DNA from: Rhizobiaceae bacterium
Lineage (GTDB): Bacteria; Pseudomonadota; Alphaproteobacteria; Rhizobiales; Rhizobiaceae
Assembly (NCBI GenBank): GCA_029233925.1
Contig: JARGOX010000028.1
Location: 20,617-84,616, forward strand
Direction of reading: 5' to 3'
Length of the DNA stretch: 64,000 nt
Shown: positions 2,240 to 7,037 of the stretch, one piece after another
Layout: each line of letters starts with the position of its first letter
How positions within the stretch are numbered: the first letter of the stretch is position 1
The notes under the pieces: model-generated
Told to the model about the DNA's origin: nothing
Seen by the model: the letters and a program-made list of their open reading frames with translations, nothing else
Databases searched by the model: none
Translations under genes and position numbers: made by a program

Positions 2240-2998
2240 TCATAATCCGTTTGCGTCAAAACGCCTGGTATCAAACAGCGGAAAAAGAAAAAAGCCGAAC
2301 AGAAATCCACCAATATGCGCCTCCCAGGCAACCTGTGCGCCTTGCGGTGCGCCTGCCGCAAATCCGAAAGCAGCCAGTGCGTTGATTCCGAACCACACCA
2401 CCACATAGGTCACAACAGTGCGGTTGGTGAATGTTTCGCTCAAACCGAGGCGCGGCAAGAGATGTGCATGAAGGCGGTTGAAACGTCCATTTTTCGGGAA
2501 GGCAAAACGTGCAGCAGCACCCATCAGCGCAGAAACCACCCCGGATGCACCGATCATCGGCACATTGCTACCCTGATTGAGCACGCCGTAAAGTGCAGCG
2601 GCGCAAATCGATGAGATAAGCCAGAACACCAGGAATCTGGTGGTTCCAATGCGGCGCGCCACAACGGCACCAAAGGCCATTAACCAGATGGAGTTGACCA
2701 CAAGATGTGCGAATCCTCCATGAAGAAAAGAATAGGTTAGAGGCGTCCAAAGCCATGCGTAGCTTTGTTGCGCGGTTTCCAGCGCATACCTCAAGGGAAT
2801 AAATCCCCCTTCGACGATGAGATGGAAATCCTGAACCTGTGTCAGAACAAATTCCCGAACGACCTGGATCAACCACATCAACGCGAGAAGCCAGATAACA
2901 ACGACGGGCAAATTGAACATTGGCTGGCGTATGGGACGGTCCCCGGTCGGGCCAGATGGCACTCCACCGGTTCCGCGGTAATCCAGTTCATCAGCCAT
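2240..2998 (-). CDS. Rhomboid family intramembrane serine protease
   Basis: About 252 residues with six predicted membrane segments. The catalytic serine motif GASGVVSALMGA is near residue 150 and the catalytic histidine in WEAHIGGFLFGFF is near residue 225; the conserved HGGFAHLVVNS segment precedes them. It cuts single-pass membrane proteins within the bilayer. The ORF track starts at 3013, but the ATG at 2998 has GGAAGG eight bases upstream and is preferred. A candidate small RNA with its own terminator lies directly upstream on the same strand. Confidence 0.92.
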   Translation of the reverse strand: MADELDYRGTGGVPSGPTGDRPIRQPMFNLPVVVIWLLALMWLIQVVREFVLTQVQDFHLIVEGGFIPLRYALETAQQSYAWLWTPLTYSFLHGGFAHLVVNSIWLMAFGAVVARRIGTTRFLVFWLISSICAAALYGVLNQGSNVPMIGASGVVSALMGAAARFAFPKNGRFNRLHAHLLPRLGLSETFTNRTVVTYVVVWFGINALAAFGFAAGAPQGAQVAWEAHIGGFLFGFFLFPLFDTRRFDANGL

Positions 2999-3050
2999 GA
3001 TCGTGCCTTCCATTCACCGCAACAACAGGCGTCATATAGCAGAACTGCAT

Positions 3051-3146
3051 AAAAAAGAAGCCGCCTGACATTGCTGTCAAACGGCCTTGGTCGGGCCCCA
3101 CCCGAACATCAGTCTGTGCTGATCTCTGCGGCACGTGCCAGCAGTG
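3051..3146 (-). ncRNA. Candidate small RNA with four hairpins
   Basis: Read on the minus strand, a promoter-like TTGAAC/TATTAA pair with 17-base spacing (3152-3180) is followed by about 95 bases without an ORF. These fold into four successive short hairpins: one around GGCACGTGCC (3130-3139), ATCAG/CTGAT (3108-3123), TCGGG/CCCGA (3091-3105) and a terminal stem GCCG-TGACA/TGTCA-CGGC (3060-3085) followed by TTCTTTTTT. That is the layout of a Rho-independent small RNA gene. It could instead be an attenuator for the rhomboid gene 50 bases downstream. I do not recognise the RNA family. Confidence 0.5.
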
Positions 3147-3151
3147 AACCA

Positions 3152-3180
3152 TTAATACTTTTATGTCATACTGAGTTCAA
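3152..3180 (-). promoter_or_regulatory. Sigma-70-type promoter for the candidate small RNA
   Basis: On the minus strand TTGAAC (3175-3180) and TATTAA (3152-3157) are separated by 17 bases, close to the housekeeping consensus; transcription would begin near 3145. Confidence 0.45.
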
Positions 3181-3366
3181 ATCGGCAAAGTAAAGTGATC
3201 GTTAACCTTAACGTCAAAATAGTCAGTGAATTGCATAGCTCCCAGAGACCTACCGGTTGACCGGGCTTCTTAAAACTTTCTTTTGCGAACTCACTGCTGC
3301 TTACTGCTTGTTAACGGACGCGCCGTATTATGGCCGCATTGGGCGAAACGACTGGATCTGATCGCA

Positions 3367-6037: not shown

Positions 6038-6284
6038 GGTTCTCTCCAATCAATCAGTCAATGTGCAGCGCGCGGTGTATCAGAACCGCAGCCTTTGACA
6101 CTTCATAATGAAACCCTGTTGAAAATGAAACGCCAGGTCTTCATGTCAGCGTTGTGGCAATGGCGAGAGTTGGTGGAATACGCGATCAAATTTACTTGGT
6201 TTTAACCATAATACTGAAAGGTTGAAATAGAATACATAACCCGCAATGCAATCGTGTCGGGTAAAAAGGCGAGTCAGCGAATTC

Positions 6285-7037
6285 ATGCAACAACCCAATG
6301 AAACAGTATCGGCAGAGACATACGAGCCTCTGATATCTGCCCGCCTGCTTCGCAGAACAATGGTCGTTGTAATCCTGATCGCAATTCTTACAATTTTACT
6401 CAATATCGGCGGCCGATGGTATGGCGAACGCATGGCAACCGGTGGTTACAACGTCGACGAAAGCCTGAAAACAATTACAATCGCTGGCAACAGGATGATT
6501 TTTCCCGCCAATACGATCCGCTTTGAAAGCCAACGCACAGGCGGTTCATCCGATCGCCTTGACCTCTACGTTGTCTGGCCGGAACTGGCGGGTTATTCCC
6601 TTGCCAATCGGCAGCAATTCAATGATAGCGAAAAATCCGGGAATTTGATTTTTCTGTCTGTGATGCCAAAAACAATGCAACTTGACATGACAGCGCGCCT
6701 TGCACCGATTTACCGCAAGCTGACGACGCCAGGTATGGCGTCCGGCATTAACGGGCTCGAAGTTCTGGAATTCACCGAAGATAGCCGTTACGTTGACGAA
6801 ATACTCTATGTCGGCGCACGAGAAGACAGAAAACCATTTGTTGTTCGCTGCCTGAAAGAGGAAAAACTGCCAAGCGGTTCGCGTTCCTGCATGCGGGACA
6901 TCAATATCGGTCAGAACCTGAGCGTTACATACCGTTTTTCCAACGGCCTGCTTCCACAATGGCAGGAATTGGACAAGGCAATCAATAATTTTATTGAAAA
7001 AGCAATGCTACCGGGTACCGCGCAGTCCCCGGCATGA
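6285..7037 (+). CDS. Conserved membrane-anchored protein of unknown function
   Basis: About 250 residues. One membrane segment near the N terminus (VVVILIAILTILLNIGG, about residues 26-42) is followed by a large domain that should be periplasmic. No known motif recognised. The region around residues 130-200 contains two or three cysteines (RCLKEEK, SRSCMRD) that could form a disulfide. Start ambiguous: an in-frame ATG at 6246 would add 13 residues. Divergent from the gamma-CA-like gene and convergent with the DUF3126 gene; nothing in the neighbourhood hints at a role. Confidence 0.8.
   Translation: MQQPNETVSAETYEPLISARLLRRTMVVVILIAILTILLNIGGRWYGERMATGGYNVDESLKTITIAGNRMIFPANTIRFESQRTGGSSDRLDLYVVWPELAGYSLANRQQFNDSEKSGNLIFLSVMPKTMQLDMTARLAPIYRKLTTPGMASGINGLEVLEFTEDSRYVDEILYVGAREDRKPFVVRCLKEEKLPSGSRSCMRDINIGQNLSVTYRFSNGLLPQWQELDKAINNFIEKAMLPGTAQSPA

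Follow-up and report, generated by a model that had tools for sequence, protein, structure and literature searches.

The DNA analysed here, hereafter the window, is a stretch of 64,000 nucleotides of contig JARGOX010000028.1, from a 6.1-Mb genome of the Rhizobiaceae (in the GTDB sense) with Hoeflea poritis and Nitratireductor sp. XY-223 among the named relatives in its genus group. The element that we describe lies on the minus strand of a spacer flanked by two divergent genes: one with a PilZ domain, which runs on the plus strand from 3283, and one for a rhomboid-family intramembrane protease, which starts at 2998 on the minus strand. Its predicted RNA and promoter are listed together with the rhomboid gene in Table 1. 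The rhomboid ATG at 2998 is preceded by the Shine-Dalgarno sequence GGAAGG (3011-3006) and stands about 52 nt past the U-tract that ends the RNA, in line with the first-pass annotation of this DNA, which had placed the gene about 50 bases beyond it. Near the divergent PilZ-type gene, at about 3300-3315 of the window, GTTAACAAGCAGTAAG is found, and four relatives (L013, L015, L018 and L019) carry GTTAACAANCGGTAAT near theirs; together they appear to mark a further repeat element, related to that of the promoter, on the opposite side of the spacer. Farther along the window, 6246-7037 (plus strand) encodes a predicted protein of 263 aa that has no Pfam or NCBIfam match.

Table 1. Features of the putative sRNA-rhomboid locus, in window coordinates
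Feature	Position	Strand	Basis
Upstream promoter element GTTAAGGTTAAC-N5-(G)TTTAC	3190..3212	-	84-locus logo; GTTAAGGTTAACGATCACTTTAC in window
-35 element TTGCCG	3183..3188	-	TTG in at least 83 of 84 loci; fixed spacing to extended -10
Extended -10 TG-N-CATAAA	3160..3168	-	T, G, C and A kept in 74, 82, 66 and 80 of 84 loci
Predicted small RNA, ~103 nt, start near A3153	3051..3153	-	Fold z about -3, covariance models, family-wide conservation
Hairpin A (CTGC-T-GGC/GCC-GCAG)	3126..3144	-	Folds of relatives: place kept, sequence varies by species
CAGCACA motif	3115..3121	-	Kept in genus and about half of family
Hairpin B TCGGG-UGGGG-CCCGA, G-rich loop (typically UGGGG)	3091..3105	-	Covariation
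Terminator hairpin, 13 bp, then U-tract to 3051	3058..3087	-	Terminator scan and covariation
Candidate rhomboid -10-like box CTATAT	3034..3039	-	TA-type trinucleotide enrichment behind U-tract
Rhomboid-family intramembrane protease gene	2240..2998	-	PF01694, E 1e-23; longest ORF from 3013

Structure and conservation of the RNA

The minus-strand segment 3153-3051 folds with a minimum free energy of -43.7 kcal/mol (z -2.95 to -3.26), and none of 200 shuffled sequences was equally stable; across 85 transcripts of homologous loci, the median fold z was -3.5. The four hairpins described in the first-pass annotation are all present in this fold, but they are not equally conserved. The small hairpin ATCAG/CTGAT is limited to the source species and its nearest relative, and hairpin A is kept in place only: its sequence is wholly different among species, while a hairpin occurs at the equal position in most folds. 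Since hairpin A resisted column alignment, it was left out of our covariation counts. Hairpin B and the last hairpin, by contrast, covary. The latter had been called a terminator, and our terminator scan agrees, finding a strong intrinsic terminator whose 13-bp stem is followed by TTCTTTTTT. Between hairpins A and B, AGCAC is invariant within the genus; of the 85 transcripts, 46 contain CAGCA and 41 contain CAGCAC. No segment of the RNA is constant enough across the family to stand out as a seed. The absence of an ORF, also claimed before, is borne out by the genus alignment, in which no conserved ORF was found in the RNA and the ATG at 3152 is missing from six of the eight members.

The first-pass annotation had made its case depend on conservation and compensatory changes among relatives, and we found both. 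The RNA is present in all eight genomes of the genus, its DNA being recognisable in all seven besides the source. A covariance model built from the genus and then broadened twice matched 144 of 299 family genomes, representing 61 of 109 genera, nearly always in single copy. Among the 90 strong matches (E <= 1e-5, within the fetched loci), the rhomboid gene lies directly downstream on the same strand in 88. Outside the family, three loci (L141, L149 and L152), all from one other family of the order, combine the RNA, the promoter and the rhomboid gene; the case is weaker for L148, which belongs to a third family. From these matches, the RNA gene family is predicted to span the wide (GTDB) Rhizobiaceae and at least one neighbouring family.

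In the 90 sequences, double-sided changes occur in 15 of the 17 pairs of hairpin B and the terminator: in five of five pairs of hairpin B, where 79% of cells are paired, and in 10 of 12 pairs of the terminator, where 98% are. Taken together, 92.8% of cells are paired, against 77.6% in shuffled alignments and 27-53% when the partners are slid by 1 to 3 columns, and double-sided changes are seen in 279 cells against 94 in shuffles. These values come from an alignment fitted to the model and therefore biased towards the structure, but the first eight-sequence structure was derived from the window, and it is in independent genera that the changes are seen.

Several other matches were set aside as chance. 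Seven weak matches away from the rhomboid gene (L122, L129, L130, L132, L133, L135 and L137) have neither a rhomboid gene nor the promoter motif, and we read RNA-model matches distant from rhomboid as chance because the motif is absent there. No rhomboid gene was found at the order-level matches L142-L147, L150 and L151 or at second copies of the RNA. A search of a plasmid collection gave no match.

Promoter and candidate regulator

The promoter conserved among relatives is GTTAAGGTTAAC-N4-GGTTTNNRTTGC-N16-TGNCA, which in the window reads GTTAAGGTTAACGATCACTTTACTTTGCCG...TATGACATAAA. It lies about 8 bp upstream of the one proposed in the first-pass annotation, TTGAAC-N17-TATTAA, which we abandoned: it failed a consensus scan, its TTGAAC falls in unconserved spacer, the closest relative, L011, has ATGCTG in place of its -35, and its TATTAA overlaps the start that we now predict. 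From the positions of the conserved -35 and extended -10, transcription would begin near A3153. In 84 rhomboid-linked loci anchored on TTAAGGTTAA, the logo is GTTAAGGTTAACAAATGGTTTACRTTGC-N16-TGGCA-N9-CA, and about ten of its columns approach 2 bits. The promoter core, with at most one mismatch, is found in 86 of 96 loci and is absent from the seven matches away from rhomboid. Such a tight logo gives a direct handle on the regulator of the sRNA.

Beside the -35, the promoter carries the direct repeats GTTAAC-N5-GTTTAC, 11 bp and thus one helical turn apart. Repeats with this spacing are typical of sites for OmpR-family regulators, and the upstream element is likely the binding site of such a response regulator. 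In S. meliloti, the CtrA consensus is TAA-N7-TTAAC, and chpT is among the genes having a CtrA motif (PMC3616915). The family consensus of our promoter, TAA-N7-TTTAC or TTTCN, resembles this box but departs from it by one or more mismatches, and L149 carries a perfect TTAA-N7-TTAA. The source genome has three exact TTAAC-N4-GGTTTAC sites. At one of them (L161, G000:C6:15585), the exact sequence TTAACAGTCGGTTTAC stands 112 nt upstream of a gene for a ChpT-like histidine phosphotransferase (PF10090, HPTransfase domain), hinting at the CckA-ChpT-CtrA pathway. Among Mesorhizobium-like genomes (L046, L053, L055, L070, L076 and others), GATTC is repeated between the RNA terminator and the rhomboid gene; GANTC, which GATTC fits, is the CcrM methylation sequence.

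In a pattern search, the long promoter element was found in 63 of 111 family genomes, often in two copies. Behind the second copy, a DUF6105 gene was present in all 11 genomes inspected (the source genome and 10 others). The 28-bp element before this gene is mostly GTTAACCTTAAC-N4-GGTTTNCRTTGC (L163, G000:C26:94403, in the source genome, and L172-L181). The DUF6105 gene is therefore a predicted second conserved member of the regulon of the sRNA promoter. CtrA is weakly indicated as the leading candidate for the regulator, and the length and low copy number of the element could also point to a dedicated regulator. A wider picture, which we offer as tentative and rather doubtful, is a dedicated and deeply conserved Rhizobiales response-regulator circuit whose few targets would be the sRNA and the gene for the DUF6105 membrane protein. 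In this circuit, a CtrA-type phosphorelay would turn on a non-coding RNA, through which post-transcriptional control would be linked to the cell cycle or the state of the envelope.

Proposed transcription unit and its alternatives

Based on these findings, we think it likely that the locus holds an independent, single-copy sRNA gene of a new family. Its RNA of about 103 nt would be made from a sigma-70 promoter of the extended -10 type, and transcription would stop at the RNA's own terminator. Activation of this promoter would probably come from an OmpR-type response regulator that occupies the repeats beside the -35. The rhomboid gene would most likely be transcribed separately, from a promoter just past that terminator. 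The RNA would probably base-pair in trans through its exposed CAGCACA region and the UGGGG loop of hairpin B. Action in trans is our default reading because the RNA is terminated and independently promoted and its loops are exposed. Against the proposal, an obvious seed is lacking across the family, and no pairing of the sRNA with the rhomboid or DUF6105 leaders was found beyond that of shuffles. The first-pass annotation had likewise favoured a small RNA gene, a reading that family-wide conservation, covariation and the combination of promoter and terminator now strengthen. By sequence and conservation, the element has the marks of an sRNA gene: its own promoter, an intrinsic terminator, a conserved structure and no ORF.

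The same annotation had named a leader attenuator of the rhomboid gene as its alternative, which appears less likely. Here the rhomboid mRNA would start near 3153 with the RNA as its 5' leader, and transcription would stop at the terminator unless a ligand, protein or ribosome signal allowed read-through. A cis element would be expected to show the same tight linkage to rhomboid (88 of 90 strong matches), and hairpin B with its conserved G-rich loop could be a sensor. We folded each RNA as far as the loop of the terminator, using RNAs with a shuffled upstream part as controls, and found no conserved antiterminator: pairing of the nascent 5' arm of the terminator with upstream sequence was 0.53, against 0.56 in the controls. 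The upstream half is moreover variable in sequence, unlike a ligand-binding aptamer. Behind the terminator, TA-type trinucleotides at 10-25 nt past the U-tract reach 18 per 5-nt bin, compared with about 8 in the bins at 30-60 nt and about 5 further on (96 loci). This enrichment and the -10-like CTATAT of the window fit the expectation for a separate rhomboid promoter and speak against a leader. In L056, L057 and L065, however, the rhomboid start is merely 17 nt past the U-tract, which leaves scant room for such a promoter; on account of these few genomes, we keep the leader as an unlikely reading rather than dismissing it. The sRNA is favoured over the attenuator because a conserved antiterminator is lacking and the -10-like box is enriched after the terminator.

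It is also conceivable, but very improbable, that the regulated promoter fires into the terminator as a promoter-proximal decoy. Its main role would then be to tune rhomboid through supercoiling or transcriptional interference, with the short RNA as a by-product. Conservation of the promoter does exceed that of the RNA sequence, as such a scheme would have it, but hairpin B, which is dispensable for termination, carries compensatory changes.

Comparison with known RNAs

If the sRNA reading holds, the RNA would represent an undescribed sRNA family. The first-pass annotation did not recognise the family, and at the gathering threshold Rfam 15 gives no match either, in the whole window or in 20 related loci. 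The best sub-threshold hit, ctRNA_p42d (RF00489), scores 14.2 bits against a gathering threshold of 50 and was taken as a chance match; its terminator hairpin is similar in shape, but ctRNA_p42d is a plasmid antisense RNA. In the open literature we found no sRNA described beside rhomboid in rhizobia, although an unnamed entry in supplementary RNA-seq sRNA tables is possible. One comparative screen excluded candidates a short way upstream of an ORF, considering them probable cis elements (PMC2780559), and for this reason earlier screens may have overlooked a rhomboid-linked sRNA. Broadly conserved rhizobial sRNAs known so far are few. The new family, which occurs in over half of the genera sampled from the bacterial family of Mesorhizobium and other symbionts, would extend their list.

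Among known rhizobial RNAs, the trans-encoded SmelC023 and SmelC289 of S. meliloti resemble the sRNA in being chromosomal and conserved in several Rhizobiales families, with multiple hairpins and covarying stems, a Rho-independent terminator and one-gene microsynteny (PMC3927594). These RFM adjoin polA and the prolyl-tRNA synthetase gene, respectively (PMC3927594), whereas the neighbour here is rhomboid (88 of 90), and it is by these published neighbour genes that we set the sRNA apart from both. GspR/SmelC775 is likewise a rhizobial trans-sRNA with three stem-loops and a link to cell-cycle control, but it is 143 nt long, lies in the SMc03844/SMc03845 spacer without known promoter signatures and is found mainly in Sinorhizobium (PMC5928217). 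Nearest in concept is CcnA of Caulobacter crescentus, a small RNA whose promoter has a CtrA box and whose loop is homopolymeric (CCCC); no homologue of CcnA was clearly detected in S. meliloti (PMC8959179). CcnA is 182 nt long, is located at the replication origin and pairs to GGGG through its C-rich loop (PMC8959179), whereas the sRNA proposed here has a G-rich loop and lies at another locus.
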